A stretch of 57,931 nt of DNA from the NCBI GenBank assembly GCA_029551285.1, contig JAKPFT010000008.1, positions 1 to 57,931 of the forward strand, in the 5' to 3' direction. The translations under genes and the position numbers were made by a program. Every line of letters begins with the position of its first letter. The first letter of the stretch is position 1. The DNA is from a bacterium. GTDB lineage: Bacteria > Ratteibacteria > UBA8468 > B48-G9 > DSTR01. Under the pieces are notes generated by a model. The model worked only from the letters and a program-made list of their open reading frames with translations, did no database searches and was not told the origin of the DNA. Positions 18,553-42,556 of this stretch are shown piece after piece.

Positions 18553-19180
18553 AGAACGGTTCCAGTGGTGGAGATGGCAATTTCCTTCCCGTCTTATGAA
18601 AGAGTAACCTGGCCGCCTCACCCGCCAGAGGATACCACCGAGGTCTTTCCGCCACCCTCAGGTCTCGGTATTCTTTCACCATTGACTCTGGAATGTCTTC
18701 CAACCCCGGTCCAGTCAGCAGCGTCCCTGGTGGTAAAAATGACAGAATCTCCCTGATGGTCCCTGTTTTGATAGAGGGTGAACGAACCAGGACCGCGGGT
18801 TTTTTTCTGAGATAGTAGTAAAACCTGCCCCGATAAGCGTTAACAAGACAGCAGACAGGACCTGTTTCCTTACGGCAGGCAAACATCAGACTTTCCACAG
18901 AAAAAAAACCGTAAAGTCGCTGCCGCTGACCGCAGACCAGACCTTTTGCGAAACTCAGTCCTACCCTTACCCCGGTCCAGGAACCAGGCCCAAGACAGAT
19001 GGCAATCCGGGAAACAGTAGTAATATCAATATGGTTTCTCTCCAGGAGAGTTTCAAGCTTACCCAGCAGGTTAATGGCTAAGTCTTCAGTTTCCCAGATA
19101 AGTTCATCCCTGACTTCCGAATTCCAGGCCAGCGCCAGGCTGGGGCGTCTGGTGCTGGTTTCTATGACCAGAACAGTCAT
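18542..19180 (-). CDS. tsaB: tRNA threonylcarbamoyladenosine biosynthesis protein TsaB
   Basis: A 212-residue TsaB-like protein from the ATG at 19180, which forms an ATGA overlap with the upstream stop (a longer frame is a shadow of that gene). The start TVLVIETSTRRPSLAL and the segment ICLGPGSWTGVRVGLSFAKGL are characteristic. TsaB pairs with TsaD and TsaE to make t6A37 in ANN-decoding tRNAs. The usual neighbours tsaE and rimI are not here; instead it lies between glycosyltransferase genes. Confidence 0.9.
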   Translation of the reverse strand: MTVLVIETSTRRPSLALAWNSEVRDELIWETEDLAINLLGKLETLLERNHIDITTVSRIAICLGPGSWTGVRVGLSFAKGLVCGQRQRLYGFFSVESLMFACRKETGPVCCLVNAYRGRFYYYLRKKPAVLVRSPSIKTGTIREILSFLPPGTLLTGPGLEDIPESMVKEYRDLRVAERPRWYPLAGEAARLLFHKTGRKLPSPPLEPFYGR

Positions 19181-21282
19181 GGCTGCACCTTCCAGGTGAC
19201 TCCCCTCACCAGAAGAAATGAAAGCCCCGCAATCGCTGTCCCGCCGAGCACGTCCAGTGGAAAATGAGCCCCGACATAACACCGGGAAAGGCCGGCCAGG
19301 CAGCCCACCAGCCACCAGCAGTACCAGTACTTCCGCTGGAACCAGGTGAGGAAAAAAACACCGCTGAAAACTGTCTGGGCGTGTCCGGATGGCCAGGAGC
19401 CACTTCTTAAAACAGGGCCAATAATGGTTACTGGCTTACTGCCATTAAAGTATAGTACCGGTCTGGCTACCTGCAGCCACCCTTTAAGAAAGTGAACTGC
19501 CAGACCACCGATCACGAGCGTCGGCAAAAAAATAGCCAGGTACGACCAGCACCTCTTTCTTTTCTTCACCCAGATAATGAAGGTCACCACCGGCACCAGG
19601 AGGTAACCAGAGCCGAACCATCCAACAGCAACCATACCAATATCAGCCAGCTGGTTTCGCCCGGCCCAGCTGTTAATAGTCAGAAAGGTCTGCTGGTCAA
19701 TCTGCTTTATTCTCTTCCAGAGTGACCGGCCTTCCGGGACGGAATTGAAAACTGCGCTGTTGGTTGCCCCGGTATCAAAGCTGTAACAGCGGACTATGAA
19801 AAATTTCTTCGCCGGTTTACCTCGCACCTGGACGACCAGCGTTTCCTTTTCTTGAAAAGACACAAACCGGTACAGGGAGGAAGGCTCTACAAAAAAGTGG
19901 TCATCAGCGAAGAAAAGACCATTCCGGGTTCGCAGTTTTTCCTTCAGAGAGAAAGATTCCTGCCAGAAATCGTACTGATCCAGAGCCGGGCTGAGGCAAT
20001 AAAGTTCAGCCTTCTGCGGTAAATAGAAAGCCAGCTGGCTGGCCTGATAAAACTTGTGAGTGAAGATAAAAAAGTTGCTTTCCTTTTCCTCCTGCTGTAT
20101 CTTCTGCAACCGCTCCGCCAGGTCCTTCCATCCCACCAGATCGTTGGTCGGGTCAACTTCAGCCGGTATAGGAAATACCTTGAAAAGTGCCTGCGCAGGT
20201 ATCATCGCCGTCATCGCGCCAGCCAGTACCATGCTTGCTATCAGATAACCCTGCGCCAGGCGCCGCTTCCCTGGCTTTTCCAGGACACAAACGACATGTT
20301 CCCCTGCTGGTATTAGAAGAACCAGATAGCCAACCGCCGGCCAGTGGGGTAGCACCTGATTGGACATTGAAGCCCAACCAAACAGCAGCAAAACAGGCCA
20401 GGTGAGACAAAAAACCAACCGGTAACGGTCATCTCCAGCCAGCGCCTTGAGACAAACTCTGACAAAAACTACCAGCAAAAGTATGAAAAGAAGCGGGGAG
20501 AAGGAACCAGCCTGAGCCCCAAGATTCCTTAAAAATACCTTTGTTTGAAAAAAAGCGTGTTCTCCCAGACCGTGGGAGAGTTGAAAACGAAAAGAAATCC
20601 AGAAATGTTCCCAGTTCCAGATGAGTACTGGCAGGAAAAAAATAAGGCTGATGCCTATCGTTAGATATGGTTCCCGGCGCCGAAACCAGAAACGCAGCCC
20701 TGGCAGTGCCAGTAGAAAAGAAAGCAAACACAGGTAAAGTAAAACGGCCGTGTATTTGGTCAGCAGAGCCAGGCCAAGAGTAAGTCCCAGAAGATACCAC
20801 CACCCTGCTCCTTTCTCCGCGTTGCCACCTGACTGGTATATCCTGGCCAGTAGAAAAAAAGCGAGCAACCAGAAAAGTCCTAACAATGTTTCCGGGACAA
20901 TCATCAGACCGCCGATAGCTGAAAAAATCGGCACCAGGTTAAAAATGAGCACGCTCCAGAAACCGGCCTTTTCTCCGAAAAGTTGTCTTCCCAGAAGGTA
21001 AAGCAACCACATCGTCAGCACGCCGGAAACAAGCGCCGGAAGTCTGACCGCGAGACAGGAGTGTCCTGATGACTTTACGCTCAACCAGATTAGCCAGCCT
21101 ACCAGCGGCGGGTGGTCGTAGTAGGACAGAGCCGGATGGGCCGCATACTGATAGTAATGAGCCTCGTCAACCCCCAGTCCCAGCCGCCAGGCCAGGAAAA
21201 TGCGAATAACTGTGGTTATTAGAATTAACCCCAGCACCTTCCCAGGATATTTTCCTGTGTTCAGCGTCCCCTCCATTTCCAT
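19177..21282 (-). CDS. GT39/ArnT-like glycosyltransferase fused to a PAP2 phosphatase domain
   Basis: A protein of about 700 residues. The first 430 residues are a multi-pass GT39/GT83-type glycosyltransferase: VDEAHYYQYA and ALSYYDHPPLVGW near residues 40-65 are the family's acidic motif and DHPP signature. After a soluble stretch (about 430-530) comes a complete PAP2 acid phosphatase domain with all three motifs: K..RP (KGWLQVARP), PSGH (about 634-637) and SRCYVGAHFPLD (catalytic His near 676). The frame is continuous, so this is a true fusion. PAP2 enzymes include undecaprenyl-diphosphate and phosphatidylglycerol-phosphate phosphatases. A TTG start at 21291 is possible; I prefer the ATG at 21282. 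The upstream gene encodes the probable donor synthase. Confidence 0.88.
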   Translation of the reverse strand: MEMEGTLNTGKYPGKVLGLILITTVIRIFLAWRLGLGVDEAHYYQYAAHPALSYYDHPPLVGWLIWLSVKSSGHSCLAVRLPALVSGVLTMWLLYLLGRQLFGEKAGFWSVLIFNLVPIFSAIGGLMIVPETLLGLFWLLAFFLLARIYQSGGNAEKGAGWWYLLGLTLGLALLTKYTAVLLYLCLLSFLLALPGLRFWFRRREPYLTIGISLIFFLPVLIWNWEHFWISFRFQLSHGLGEHAFFQTKVFLRNLGAQAGSFSPLLFILLLVVFVRVCLKALAGDDRYRLVFCLTWPVLLLFGWASMSNQVLPHWPAVGYLVLLIPAGEHVVCVLEKPGKRRLAQGYLIASMVLAGAMTAMIPAQALFKVFPIPAEVDPTNDLVGWKDLAERLQKIQQEEKESNFFIFTHKFYQASQLAFYLPQKAELYCLSPALDQYDFWQESFSLKEKLRTRNGLFFADDHFFVEPSSLYRFVSFQEKETLVVQVRGKPAKKFFIVRCYSFDTGATNSAVFNSVPEGRSLWKRIKQIDQQTFLTINSWAGRNQLADIGMVAVGWFGSGYLLVPVVTFIIWVKKRKRCWSYLAIFLPTLVIGGLAVHFLKGWLQVARPVLYFNGSKPVTIIGPVLRSGSWPSGHAQTVFSGVFFLTWFQRKYWYCWWLVGCLAGLSRCYVGAHFPLDVLGGTAIAGLSFLLVRGVTWKVQP

Positions 21283-21974
21283 CTCAAGCAAATGACCCGC
21301 CAGAGATACCGACAGAGTGTCGTCACTTTGAGTTTTGATTTTCCTGCCCGCCGCTGGTAAAAATAGATGGGCACTTCCACGATGCGGTTACCGCTCCTTC
21401 TTAAATGGAAAAGCAGTTCGGTAACAATAAAAGGGTCATCAGCCTCAAGCAATGGTAACACTGGTCTCAGGGCCTCCTTCCTGAAAAAACGAAATCCTGA
21501 AGTTGGGTCTGTTAACTTCAACCCCAGCCACAGGTTCAGATAAAACCTGGCAGTTCCGGTAACCAGCGTTCGCAGCCAGCCCCGTTCTGCCAGCCCTCCG
21601 CCGGGTAGATAACGCGAACCTATCGCCACGTCAGCATCTTCCAGAGCCGCCACTAACGACGGAATAAAGCGTGGGTGGTGAGAAAAATCTGCGTCCATCT
21701 CACCCACAATATCACTGCCTGACTCCAGAGCCCTCTGAAAACCCTCCCGGCCCGCTAAGCCGCGGCCACGCTTGCCTTTTCTTACCAGAACATTTACCCG
21801 CTCATGGTCCGGGAAAGCCAGCAGCACTTCTCTGGCTGTTTCGTCCGGCGAAGCGTCATCAACAACCAGAATGTTTATTCCTGGCCAGGAAGAAAGAATC
21901 TCGCCAATCAGCGCCACAATCGTTTCTCGTTCATTGTAGGTGGGAACCACAACGGTAACAACTGGCTTACTCAT
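21261..21974 (-). CDS. Polyprenyl-phosphate sugar synthase (DPM1-like GT2)
   Basis: A 237-residue GT2 enzyme from the ATG at 21974, overlapping the GT9 stop by 8 bases. VTVVVPTYNERE, LVVDDASPDET (nucleotide-binding Asp), and MDADFSHHP (metal DxD-like motif) followed by GSRYLPGGG match dolichol/polyprenol-phosphate mannose synthases without a C-terminal membrane domain. It would make Und-P-mannose or -glucose, the donor used by the GT39 enzymes at 19177-21282 and 9916-11502. Overlap with the fusion gene supports a joint function. Confidence 0.9.
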   Translation of the reverse strand: MSKPVVTVVVPTYNERETIVALIGEILSSWPGINILVVDDASPDETAREVLLAFPDHERVNVLVRKGKRGRGLAGREGFQRALESGSDIVGEMDADFSHHPRFIPSLVAALEDADVAIGSRYLPGGGLAERGWLRTLVTGTARFYLNLWLGLKLTDPTSGFRFFRKEALRPVLPLLEADDPFIVTELLFHLRRSGNRIVEVPIYFYQRRAGKSKLKVTTLCRYLWRVICLRWKWRGR

Positions 21975-23073
21975 GGAGTAACCTTCTGACAAGTCTGGCA
22001 ACCGTCGCCGGTTTGATCGCTGCCATGCAGGAGGGATAGTCAGGACACTCCCGTCGATAGCAACAGTAACATTCCAGCGGAGTGATCACCTTTGAAACCA
22101 GACCATAATCCTCAATCTCCGCCGCCGAGGTGGGGCCAAAAAGAGCCACTACTTTCTTCTTCAACCCGGTGGCAGCGTGAAGAGCCAGTGTATCTCCTGT
22201 CACCACCACGTCGGAAAGATTGAGCAGCGCAAAAAAGTCCGTAAGTTTATTATCCCAGCCACCATTAAGAAGTGTTTCTGAATGGCTCAACAGTTGTTTC
22301 ATGGCCGGCTCTTCCTCCCGGCCGCCCAGCAGTAGTAGAACCGCCTCCCCTTCCAGATGCTGAGTCAGTTCCAACCAGTTTGCTTCAGGCCAGCGCTTGG
22401 TGACCCAGGCAGGGCCACTACCCACGTTTAAGCCCACAACCTTCTGGCCTGACAGCCGGTATTTTTCCGCAAAGAGCCGGGCATACTCTAAGGAAACATC
22501 AGGTAAAGGAACAAATATCTGGCCGATCTGCTTCAGACCTATAATATCAGCCATCCACCGTTGATAGCTCAGTTTATTGTGTTTCTTGGCCCGGTCATCA
22601 TGACTCAGCAAGAGCCAGTTTTCCGCAGCAGCACCAGAACAAACTATCTCACCGGAAGGATTATACCAGAAGCCGATACGGGTTCTGGCCTGCGGCAGGC
22701 CCGCCAGAAGCAGACTTTCCCTGGAGAGGTCAAGATTAATCACCACCTCAAATTGAAAAAAAGTCAAGTTAGCCACCGTGTCCGGGGTATCATCTGTCCA
22801 GACTTCATCAAGCCACGGATTGTCTTTCAGCAGTCCCTGACTTTCCCTGGCGGTTAACCAGATGATACGATGTTCCGGAAAACGTTTCCGGAGAGGCTGC
22901 AGAAGGGCCGTTGTCCTTAAAACATCTCCAAGCGCCTCCCGCTTTACTATCAGAAGACGACCGGAACCTGGCTGGTAGTGCGAACAGTTCTGACAGGTTA
23001 AGCCCTGCTCCTTGTGAAAGACACACGGCCTATCAGGGAGGAAAAAGCGACATTTCTGTTTTAGTTGCTTCAT
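21967..23073 (-). CDS. GT9 glycosyltransferase (heptosyltransferase-like) with N-terminal Cys cluster
   Basis: A 368-residue GT9 enzyme from the ATG at 23073, 7 bases after the DUF3108 stop. The core has LLIVKREALGDVLRTTALL, VNLDLSRES, the GSGPAWVTKRWPEANW region and VVTGDTLALHAATGLKKKVVAL, typical of ADP-heptose:LPS heptosyltransferases. The N-terminus adds four cysteines (Cys8, Cys17, Cys28, Cys31) in a pattern that could hold a metal, and more cysteines (CYCCYRREC) occur near the C-terminus, as in other GT9 members. It likely builds LPS core or a related glycan. Confidence 0.88.
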   Translation of the reverse strand: MKQLKQKCRFFLPDRPCVFHKEQGLTCQNCSHYQPGSGRLLIVKREALGDVLRTTALLQPLRKRFPEHRIIWLTARESQGLLKDNPWLDEVWTDDTPDTVANLTFFQFEVVINLDLSRESLLLAGLPQARTRIGFWYNPSGEIVCSGAAAENWLLLSHDDRAKKHNKLSYQRWMADIIGLKQIGQIFVPLPDVSLEYARLFAEKYRLSGQKVVGLNVGSGPAWVTKRWPEANWLELTQHLEGEAVLLLLGGREEEPAMKQLLSHSETLLNGGWDNKLTDFFALLNLSDVVVTGDTLALHAATGLKKKVVALFGPTSAAEIEDYGLVSKVITPLECYCCYRRECPDYPSCMAAIKPATVARLVRRLLHE

Positions 23074-23080
23074 CGGCTTT

Positions 23081-24274
23081 TCACATGGAAGCCAGTAGAG
23101 AAGAAATCGTTTCCTGGTTAAGCACCGCAGTCGCTTCAAGTTTCCTGGTAGAAATCAGTTCCAGTTTGGCGCTGCCCAGAACAATTTTACCGTGCAGATA
23201 TGCCGGGAGACGATTGTCATCGGCTGTCAACCAAAGAACCATTTTCCCCTGGGTAAAAAGCCCTTCATCGGAGGCTACTTCCGGTTCAAGCACCAGGAAT
23301 TCTCTCAATCCCAGCAGAGGAAGCTTACGTTTTATCCGTTCCCTGTAGCGAACCGTCAGGGTCCAGAGTTTGGTAAGAGCAACTGGATATTTTGCTTCTT
23401 CGCCGGCCTTGAAATTATCCATTCTCATCCTGTAGAAAACACCGATGCTGTCGTATACCGGCTGGGTATATTTCACCCGGCCGCCTTTGGTTTCTGTTAG
23501 TTTGCCCTCCTTATACTTCCGGCCTGTCCAGGTAAACAATTTCTCGCCGGTCTCAAATTCTACTTCGGTGATTCGCTCTGTCTTTCCGGCACGGGTATAG
23601 GTATAAAAATAGTATGGCTCAAATGTTTCCGGGTTTACGTAGGCATCAACTCGATTAAAACCGTACCCTAACTTAGCCGGCAAGCCGGTAGGCACAGTAA
23701 TCCCGACCAGATGATAAACCTTTCCGTATCTGTTTCTCTCTTCCTGACAGGCCATCATCGCTTTGCCCAGGGTGGCCAGGTTCCATCTGGCTTCAAAAAA
23801 AAGACATTCACCCCGGAAACCACTTAACGAGAGAACTGGCTGTTGCCTCATTATTTCCGGCGGCCCGGCAGCCTTCAAAGTCTCTTCCAGCGGTGGCTCC
23901 ACCTTTTTAGCCAGGAGAACTCCGTTTTCAGTATTGTCGTTAACCACTGACACCGGGGGCGCTTCCACTTCCGGGGACCGGTTGTTCTCAACCGGTTCTA
24001 ACTTGTTCGCTATTTCCTCGCGACCTGTGGCTGTTGCCGGACCGGGAAGAATGAGAACCCCGGTTTCTGGCTGCTTGATTTCCAGCGAAGAAGGCTCCGG
24101 AAGAGCCGCCTGTTCCTGAACCACAGCCAGCTCGCTTTTTTCAGCAGGAACCGTTTTACCTTCTTCCCCCGGTCCTGGTTCCAGTTTACTTTGCTTTACG
24201 CCACTGCATCCCGAGAGGATAATTATGCCCAGAAGGACAACCCATTCCCTGGCGCTCATTTTGTTTTCCTTCAT
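23081..24274 (-). CDS. DUF3108-domain lipoprotein
   Basis: A 397-residue predicted lipoprotein: a short signal peptide with the lipobox LSGCS (Cys about residue 23), a low-complexity Pro/Glu-rich linker (about 30-150), and a C-terminal DUF3108 domain (from GECLFFEARWNLATLG) made of beta strands. DUF3108 proteins are periplasmic or outer-membrane attached and of unknown function, often near envelope genes. It is the first gene of the run leading to the GT9, DPM1-like and GT39-PAP2 genes. Its promoter probably lies in the palindrome at 24338-24357. Confidence 0.85.
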   Translation of the reverse strand: MKENKMSAREWVVLLGIIILSGCSGVKQSKLEPGPGEEGKTVPAEKSELAVVQEQAALPEPSSLEIKQPETGVLILPGPATATGREEIANKLEPVENNRSPEVEAPPVSVVNDNTENGVLLAKKVEPPLEETLKAAGPPEIMRQQPVLSLSGFRGECLFFEARWNLATLGKAMMACQEERNRYGKVYHLVGITVPTGLPAKLGYGFNRVDAYVNPETFEPYYFYTYTRAGKTERITEVEFETGEKLFTWTGRKYKEGKLTETKGGRVKYTQPVYDSIGVFYRMRMDNFKAGEEAKYPVALTKLWTLTVRYRERIKRKLPLLGLREFLVLEPEVASDEGLFTQGKMVLWLTADDNRLPAYLHGKIVLGSAKLELISTRKLEATAVLNQETISSLLASM

Positions 24275-40266: not shown

Positions 40267-41352
40267 TCATTCTATAAAATTTCTCAGCAGATTGTCAATT
40301 GCTACTTCCCTCCCTTTTTCATCTTCAAAAAAGGCCGCAATTCTCAAACACATAAATTTTTCCGGTGGGTCCAGCCGCCACACCTTAACCGCGTCCTTTT
40401 CTGTCATCAGCCAGCAGTCAACCCCCAGCCTTTCCCCCAGCGCAACCAGCTCCACCACATCCTGAGGCTGGTAGCAATAGTGGTCAGGGTAAGCCACGGT
40501 GAAGAGCCGTCGCGGTTGCATTTCCCGAACCAGAGCAAAAAAACTGAATGGCTGGCCAATACCAGCAAAAGCCAGGATATCCTTCCCGAAAAGGAAGTTA
40601 CCCGGGAAGGTCTTGCCCGAACGCTCTGTAATGCCCGCCTCCCGGTAATTCATGGAGAAAACAGGCCTGTGGTAACCCTTCAGCCTTTTTATCAGCGTGT
40701 CCTTTTCTTGCGCCGGAAGTAACCGGGAATTAGTTAGAATGATTACCTCCACCCTTCTTAACCGTATCGGGAGATCCCGCAACAGGCCGGCAGGAAGCAA
40801 GAATCCGTTGTCAAAAGGGTTAAGCGCATCCAGCAAGGCTATCTCCACATCTTTCTTGATATGGTAACTCTGCAGGGCATCATCAATAACCACCGCGTCA
40901 GGTTCAGTCTGACGAGCAACTATCTCCACAAGCCGGTGTTTGCTTTTTCCCTTAACAAAGAGTGTCCCGGGTAGTTTGCGCGCCAGTAAAACCACCTCGT
41001 CACCGAATTGAGACGGGTCCCTCGCCAGCCGGCCAGGCGCTAACAGGGTTGAGCCTCTGGAGCCTATCCCGGAACTGACCACTACCACCCTGGTGAATTT
41101 TCTGAAAAGATTCCTGACAATGATTTCCACCAGGGTTGTCTTGCCTGTCCCACCAGCCGTCAGGTTGCCAACTCCGACCACGAGAAAAGGATACCGTCTG
41201 GGCCGCAGGAAAAGCCGAAGGCAGGTAACTGCCAGCAGGTAAAGCAGAGAAAACGGCAGCAGCATGGCGGAAACGACTGCCCAGCAGACCGACCGCCGCC
41301 TTTGAAGGAAACTCCGGTAAAGGGCGCTAAAAAAGGGCCTGCTGGTCTTCAC
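40267..41352 (-). CDS. lpxK: Tetraacyldisaccharide 4'-kinase (LpxK)
   Basis: A 361-residue membrane-anchored P-loop kinase of lipid A synthesis, phosphorylating the 4' position. A transmembrane helix lies near residues 30-50, followed by GVGNLTAGGTGKTTLVE (Walker A); the family normally has GGTGKTP. VVIDDALQSY and LAFAGIGQPFSFF are typical of LpxK. I take a GTG at 41352 as start; the open frame continues 15 codons upstream, inside the endonuclease Q gene. It is direct evidence of a lipid A outer membrane. Confidence 0.9.
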   Translation of the reverse strand: MKTSRPFFSALYRSFLQRRRSVCWAVVSAMLLPFSLLYLLAVTCLRLFLRPRRYPFLVVGVGNLTAGGTGKTTLVEIIVRNLFRKFTRVVVVSSGIGSRGSTLLAPGRLARDPSQFGDEVVLLARKLPGTLFVKGKSKHRLVEIVARQTEPDAVVIDDALQSYHIKKDVEIALLDALNPFDNGFLLPAGLLRDLPIRLRRVEVIILTNSRLLPAQEKDTLIKRLKGYHRPVFSMNYREAGITERSGKTFPGNFLFGKDILAFAGIGQPFSFFALVREMQPRRLFTVAYPDHYCYQPQDVVELVALGERLGVDCWLMTEKDAVKVWRLDPPEKFMCLRIAAFFEDEKGREVAIDNLLRNFIE

Positions 41353-42556
41353 TTTGAGAAGATTCCAGCAAGATCTGGACCTTGCCAAATTCGCCATCGT
41401 AACCCGGCTGAACGTTGACCTTGCCCTGGCGCATCAGACAGATACCTTCAGCAATCGTTGGCGTCAAATTCCGGTAGAGTTCACTTTCGCTTGTTTCCAG
41501 AAGCACAGTAAATTCTGAACCTAATTTTCGCACTATCTCCTGGTAGAGGTTCTGGACAGCGCTTGATTCAGCCGGTTTACCAAGCACCGAGGAAATAATC
41601 TGGTCCAGGGGGACTACTTTTTTGAAACCAATATACTTTTCCGGTCTCTCACCCTCAGCACGGTCAGCCAGTTGTTTTACCCGATGCAGTACCCCGACCG
41701 TCAGAGGCCGACCGCACTTAGGACAGGTGTAGTCATATTTTCTTGTTTCTTCCGGTGCCAGGCAAACCTGACAGTTCCGGTGCCCATCATAATGGTATTT
41801 ACCCTCCTCCGGAAAGTACTCTATGGTGAAAAGAAAGGAAGAGGTGTCTTTTTCCTTGAAGATTCGTTTCAGTTCGTTCAGATCAAAAGACTGCCGGAAA
41901 ACATTCATTTCCCGGCCAAGCTTCTGCGGGGAGTGAGCGTCAGAATTTGAAACCAGGCAGTAGCGGTCAAGTTGAGAACATAGCCAGTTCATTGCCGGGT
42001 CGCTGCTCAACCCTGTTTCCAAGGCTATTATTTCCCCGGCCATTTTCCCAAAGCACTCCTCTATCCGGTCAAAACCTGAATTGGAACCGAAGAGGGAAAA
42101 ATGGGGCGTCCAGATGTGCGCTGGAATCACCAGACCATATTCGTCAGCCGCCTGCACCAGCCGCACCAGTTCCTCTCCTTCCAGATGGAGAATTGGACGA
42201 CCGTCCACATTAAGGTCTCCGTAGCGCTCTAAAAAGGAATTTATCTTTTCCACATTTTTGAGACTGGAAGCAACGATGATGTTATGGACCTTTTTGGCCC
42301 GACCCTTTCGGTCAAAAATCAAACAGACTTCAGCCGTCAGAACAAAATCTGTCCGTCCATGTCGGTAGATACCGATCCTCTCGGTAGGCTCAAGCTTTTC
42401 CCGCAACTGGTGCAACCAAAGAAAATGCGTAAAATCGCCTGTCCCTAAAAGATTAATCCCTTTCAGTCCGGCCCACTGGTCCAGTTCCGGAATATTCATA
42501 CTCTTGCTGGTCGCCCGGCTGAACTGAGAATGAATGTGAAAATCAGCCAGATACAT
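41327..42556 (-). CDS. Endonuclease Q-family PHP nuclease
   Basis: A 409-residue PHP-domain protein: ADFHIHSQFSRAT (metal-binding HxH, residues 5-12), later GTGDFTH and SNSDAHS (metal ligands), followed by a C-terminal zinc finger CQVC...CPKCG. This pairing is that of endonuclease Q, which nicks DNA at deaminated bases (uracil, hypoxanthine, xanthine); it is common in Thermococcales archaea and scattered in bacteria. The HIT protein and tRNA nucleotidyltransferase genes precede it, with an overlap of 14 bases. Confidence 0.88.
   Translation of the reverse strand: MYLADFHIHSQFSRATSKSMNIPELDQWAGLKGINLLGTGDFTHFLWLHQLREKLEPTERIGIYRHGRTDFVLTAEVCLIFDRKGRAKKVHNIIVASSLKNVEKINSFLERYGDLNVDGRPILHLEGEELVRLVQAADEYGLVIPAHIWTPHFSLFGSNSGFDRIEECFGKMAGEIIALETGLSSDPAMNWLCSQLDRYCLVSNSDAHSPQKLGREMNVFRQSFDLNELKRIFKEKDTSSFLFTIEYFPEEGKYHYDGHRNCQVCLAPEETRKYDYTCPKCGRPLTVGVLHRVKQLADRAEGERPEKYIGFKKVVPLDQIISSVLGKPAESSAVQNLYQEIVRKLGSEFTVLLETSESELYRNLTPTIAEGICLMRQGKVNVQPGYDGEFGKVQILLESSQSEDQQALF

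Follow-up and report, generated by a model that had tools for sequence, protein, structure and literature searches.

A glycosyltransferase and a phosphatase in one reading frame

Does a reading frame that joins a membrane glycosyltransferase of the GT-C superfamily to a PAP2 phosphatase encode one genuine protein, and if so, what would such a protein do? The question is raised by a minus-strand gene in the window (the whole stretch of DNA analyzed here, 57,931 nucleotides), in which a first-pass annotation had placed a GT39-like glycosyltransferase and a PAP2 phosphatase complete in its catalytic motifs. The start chosen there, 21282, is an in-frame ATG; the frame itself opens three codons earlier, at the TTG at 21291. 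The features of the fusion are as follows:

19177–21291, minus strand: GT-C/PAP2 fusion, 704 a.a. from TTG (701 a.a. from the ATG at 21282)
19744–21291, minus strand: ArnT-like GT-C half, residues 1–516 (Pfam PMT_2; ArnT fold and profile match)
21163–21168, minus strand: D42-E43, conserved acidic pair in the first outer loop, putatively catalytic
19777–20151, minus strand: alpha/beta domain after the GT-C membrane part, residues 381–505 (AlphaFold2 secondary structure)
19180–19743, minus strand: LpxE-like PAP2 half, residues 517–704 (Pfam PAP2; LpxE top by profile and fold)
19459–19485, minus strand: PAP2 motif 1, K603-x6-R610-P611, invariant in aligned homologues
19381–19392, minus strand: PAP2 motif 2, P634-S-G-H637, invariant in aligned homologues
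19252–19287, minus strand: PAP2 motif 3, S669-R670-x3-G674-x-H676-x3-D680, invariant in aligned homologues

Pfam assigned PMT_2 to residues 59–225 (E = 1.2e-34) and PAP2 to residues 586–701 (5.8e-17; 62.1 bits against a cut-off of 27.2), which, with the invariant motifs, bears out the presence of both domains and of every catalytic motif in one frame. An AlphaFold2 model built from 12 aligned homologues (mean pLDDT of 86.6, pTM of 0.80) shows a membrane part that ends at residue 370, followed by an alpha/beta domain (~381–505), a short linker, and then the PAP2 helices. The soluble domain that follows the membrane part of ArnT is periplasmic, and by analogy the alpha/beta domain of the GT-C half is expected to be periplasmic as well.

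Conservation and phylogeny of the fusion

A frameshift or assembly error that had joined two adjacent genes was the explanation that the first-pass annotation held could undo its proposal, in which case relatives would carry separate genes. Separate genes are not the rule: the fusion was found in 12 other genomes (10 copies whole-length, two cut by contig ends) and in each of the three families sampled from one Omnitrophota order at 39–61% identity. Full-length copies occur in the other species sampled from its own genus (61%) and in the two further families (39–50%). In trees of each half that included stand-alone homologues, the fused proteins formed one group with 100% support. Conservation and a single clade for each half indicate an old fusion rather than a frameshift, and these sequence comparisons fit one old fusion event. 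A broken frame in one relative (G003) is the single point in favor of an artefact, but there the frame is interrupted within the PAP2 domain, away from the GT-C/PAP2 junction. Given the 12 other assemblies and the monophyly of each half, we consider such an error exceedingly improbable and regard it as ruled out.

In another relative, G006, we noted a PAP2-only protein (L041:7701-8480) nested inside the fused clade, a position which suggests that this genome lost the GT-C half. The fusion was not seen among the sampled genomes of other phyla, nor in 41 genomes surveyed around G054, the owner of the nearest stand-alone GT-C homologues. A described GT-C/PAP2 fusion was likewise not found in the open-access literature, a scope outside which most subscription papers fall.

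Closest relatives of the two halves

The GT-C half has the multi-helix membrane domain, acidic first outer loop, and soluble C-terminal domain of the GT-C superfamily in its ArnT-like form. ArnT was both its best fold match (9.9e-11) and its sole PDB profile match (0.0028), while protein O-mannosyltransferases and ALG enzymes also appeared in the fold search. The label "GT39-like" was thus loose, given that the nearest characterized GT-C relative is ArnT (GT83) and not the GT39 protein mannosyltransferases; at 26.5 bits against the ArnT family (equivalog) cut-off of 567, however, the half is not classed as ArnT either. D42-E43, which we take to be the catalytic site expected of a GT-C enzyme, is conserved in every alignment row reaching that position.

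The PAP2 half carries the three motifs of its superfamily (KxxxxxxRP, PSGH, and SRxxxxxHxxxD) together with a Pfam match above cut-off, and its best PDB match was the LpxE of Aquifex aeolicus by fold as well as by sequence. In a family-profile search of solved chains, this LpxE ranked first (1.2e-24), followed by YodM (2e-13) and E. coli PgpB (0.0015), and in the fold search it aligned over 168 columns at a TM-score of 0.86 and 2.2 Å. The top NCBIfam match was SepP, an undecaprenyl-diphosphatase, which scored 48 bits where the cut-off is 250, and a comparison with plasmids returned weak, uninformative matches only. The N terminus of LpxE is periplasmic, LpxE-like proteins vary in substrate, the Aquifex enzyme hydrolyses C55-PP and phosphatidylglycerophosphate (PGP) too, and YodM acts on PGP (PMC6581854). 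Since Aquifex LpxE is multifunctional, the match leaves the substrate of the PAP2 half unfixed. A search of the own genome detected the fused PAP2 as the sole one, with no second PAP2 protein found, whereas nearly all relatives have another, different PAP2 protein.

The conserved gene cluster and a third module

Two genes directly precede the fusion:

21261–22001, minus strand: DPM1-like GT2, probable polyprenyl-phosphate-sugar synthase (PDB profile matches)
21967–23139, minus strand: GT9 heptosyltransferase-like gene, Cys-rich at both ends; opens the conserved three-gene cluster

The best PDB match of the GT2 protein was dolichol-phosphate-mannose synthase (4.2e-29), followed by ArnC (7.6e-10), consistent with the DPM1-like donor synthase earlier proposed to lie upstream. 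The fusion gene overlaps the GT2 gene, and its stop overlaps the likely start of tsaB downstream. The order GT9, DPM1-like GT2, fusion recurs in every relative whose contig extends that far, so that the operon, which the first-pass annotation had wished to see checked in relatives, is shared. Both ends of the GT9 gene bear conserved stretches rich in Cys (CRFF...C...CQNC; CYCCYRRECPDYPSC); relatives share them, Zymogenaceae locus L078 has part of them, and they possibly form a metal site. Directly upstream of it lies a DUF3108 protein (23081–24274) with a lipoprotein-like N terminus (ILSGCS).

In three genomes of one genus (G002, G004, and G018), the frame runs on for 1150–1156 codons in all and adds a third module after PAP2. 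This module comprises ~450 residues, in which membrane segments flank a PHP-type domain (LDLHSHTIYSHDG ... PHIW ... GTNWHGW) that holds HxH and further metal-ligand-like residues. Its occurrences are:

L033:346-3798, L034:7282-10752, and L035:1938-5402: three-module frames
L032:205-1530: third module as a separate gene

In G016, of a related genus, the module is a separate gene directly downstream (PHP at 24.9 bits against a Pfam cut-off of 26.4). Being fused in one genus and adjacent in the other, it indicates that the fused gene joined its next neighbor too.

Lipid A genes in the window and around homologues of the fusion

One further gene of the window provides context:

40267–41397, minus strand: LpxK, lipid A 4′-kinase, outside the operon

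Its presence indicates that the organism makes lipid A, and LpxC was detected in all 28 searched genomes of the order, about half of which lack the fusion despite having LpxC. The fused gene lies outside any lpx operon in the window, LpxK being ~19 kb away. The genome itself and most relatives encode a separate BacA. A search of this genome for a GtrA flippase came back empty. Among 60 PAP2 loci compared from other genomes (weak matches to general ABC transporters were left uncounted), stand-alone PAP2 genes stood beside lptF/lptG or in an lpxA-lpxB-msbA-lpxK operon in five of the 17 nearest versus none of the 43 more distant, a split with a probability of ~0.001 when calculated by hand, albeit post hoc and with many of the 43 from bacteria without lipid A. 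In the Zymogenaceae locus, relatives of GT9 (33%), PAP2 (31–35%), and GT2 (40%) lie between lpxB and msbA.

We also considered an association of LpxK with the fusion across the order (LpxK in 12 of 15 genomes with the fusion, a count that includes partial and broken copies, versus seven of 13 without), which was too weak to use. Three genomes with a completeness of at least 90% (G006, G012, and G014) have LpxC with LpxK undetected, a hint that their lipid A lacks the usual 4′-phosphate or that they use another kinase. Of the PGP phosphatases, the search covered PgpA, which was present in only two of the 28 genomes. A literature search returned no lipid A structure for Omnitrophota.

A proposed exchange of phosphate for sugar

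GT-C enzymes of the ArnT kind and LpxE-type phosphatases are active at the outer side of the inner membrane. We propose, at a probability of roughly 55%, that the fusion is a bifunctional inner-membrane enzyme which, on the periplasmic face, swaps a phosphate of lipid A for a sugar. The neighboring GT2 would make a polyprenyl-phosphate-sugar in the cytoplasm, which a flippase would turn outward; the PAP2 half, judging by its LpxE match, would remove a phosphate from exported lipid A; and the ArnT-like half would move the sugar to the freed hydroxyl, releasing Und-P. The 1-phosphate would be a likelier target than the 4′-phosphate, because LpxE is a 1-phosphatase. With the halves joined, removal and capping may be local and coupled. 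As the N terminus of LpxE and the soluble domain of ArnT are both periplasmic, fusion at that point would keep both orientations.

The first-pass annotation had proposed sugar transfer from Und-P-sugar combined with either carrier recycling or phosphate removal from lipid A or a glycolipid. Three observations favor its lipid A branch: the LpxE match, the presence of lipid A genes, and the lpx/lpt surroundings of homologues. As a main role, carrier recycling is less probable, given that the genome has its own BacA and that transfer from Und-P-sugar releases Und-P rather than Und-PP; as a sole role, Und-PP recycling is weakened by the separate BacA. The same two facts weigh on a broader alternative, in which the halves share a membrane patch and not a substrate, the GT-C half decorating LPS core, O-antigen, or another glycolipid while PAP2 hydrolyses Und-PP from polymerization or ligation and so recycles the carrier for GT2. 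The action of Aquifex LpxE on C55-PP (PMC6581854), the SepP match (though far below its cut-off), and a window rich in sugar and glycosyltransferase genes speak for this arrangement, which we nevertheless regard as rather unlikely, since the GT-C step would yield no Und-PP and BacA is present in most relatives too.

Activity of Aquifex LpxE on PGP as well as C55-PP, combined with the absence of PgpA from nearly the whole order (26 of 28 genomes), makes a general phosphatase role possible, in which the PAP2 half would be a housekeeping PGP phosphatase or general lipid phosphatase and its fusion to GT-C incidental. YodM, which also acts on PGP (PMC6581854), and the status of the fused PAP2 as the sole one detected in its genome agree with this, but a second, distinct PAP2 exists in nearly all relatives and about half manage without the fusion, and we judge the role improbable. 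We give equally little weight to a GT-C half that glycosylates a secreted protein or another glycan, with PAP2 taking a phosphate or diphosphate off the acceptor or donor concerned: enzymes of the same fold do include protein O-mannosyltransferases and ALG enzymes, yet the best fold match, ArnT, modifies lipid A, the PAP2 half resembles LpxE, and homologue neighborhoods hold lipid A and LPS transport genes.

The exchange of phosphate for sugar on lipid A is hence the reading we prefer. On this reading, the lipid A of this Omnitrophota order, which is known from metagenomes, should be poor in phosphate and capped with sugar, and the fusion itself argues for coupled dephosphorylation and glycosylation, two jobs which other bacteria give to separate neighboring genes. 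More tentatively, and at less than even odds, the coupled exchange by a single protein may gain a further step in one genus from the third module, a membrane-bound PHP-type hydrolase; if true, such a one-chain machine for lipid A remodeling has not been described before.

Comparison with unfused counterparts and known systems

Neighboring GT-C and PAP2 genes occur in Syntrophaceae, Smithella, and other deltaproteobacterial genomes, where lptF, lptG, msbA, or lpx genes flank them, as well as in some Alphaproteobacteria; these loci were fetched via a PAP2 motif and are illustrative rather than a measure of frequency. An unbiased co-occurrence count of the deltaproteobacterial pairs was dropped, owing to this fetch and to ranking on both halves. 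The nearest PAP2 and nearest GT-C relatives lie mostly in different loci. Two deltaproteobacterial loci beside lptF (L062:6001-10410, also with msbA and lpxK, and L065:2113-6667) each contain a pair of GT-C genes and a pair of PAP2 genes, which would suit an exchange of both lipid A phosphates there. On a Martelella plasmid (NZ_CP054859), found with the whole fusion as the query through a match on the GT-C half, genes for PAP2, a polyprenol monophosphomannose synthase (GT2), GtrA, and GT39 are adjacent. This cassette sets the same roles side by side as the cluster in the window, but it is unfused, includes a GtrA gene, and is uncharacterized.

The individual halves resemble known enzymes that each lack the partner. 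Aquifex aeolicus LpxE (6ebu; PMC6581854), to which the PAP2 half is akin by profile and fold, is a stand-alone protein of 180 a.a. with no GT-C part, in contrast to the 704 a.a. of the fusion. ArnT (GT83; 5ezm, 5f15), the closest fold to the GT-C half, is the lipid A aminoarabinose transferase, which adds its sugar onto a retained phosphate and has no PAP2 part.

In its gene content, the cluster in the window, which combines a probable donor synthase with GT-C and PAP2 in an organism that makes lipid A, corresponds to the RgtE/RgtF/LpxE type. We know of no earlier fused form of the LpxE and RgtF pair, and if our reading is true, this would be the first. In Mesorhizobium loti, rgtE, rgtF, and lpxE lie in one cluster, with rgtF encoding the lipid A alpha-(1,1)-GalA transferase (PMC5644692), and homologues of rgtE, lpxE, and rgtF have successive locus-tag numbers in Oligotropha, whose lipid A carries GalA at both ends (PMC7663294). 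As in the window, where the phosphatase role is a proposed one, a DPM1-like synthase, an ArnT-like GT-C, and a PAP2 lipid A phosphatase are co-encoded in M. loti (PMC5644692), where the set is linked to replacement of the position-1 phosphate of lipid A by galacturonic acid. The likeness is one of gene roles, and the M. loti set consists of separate genes, whereas here the GT-C and PAP2 parts form one fused protein.
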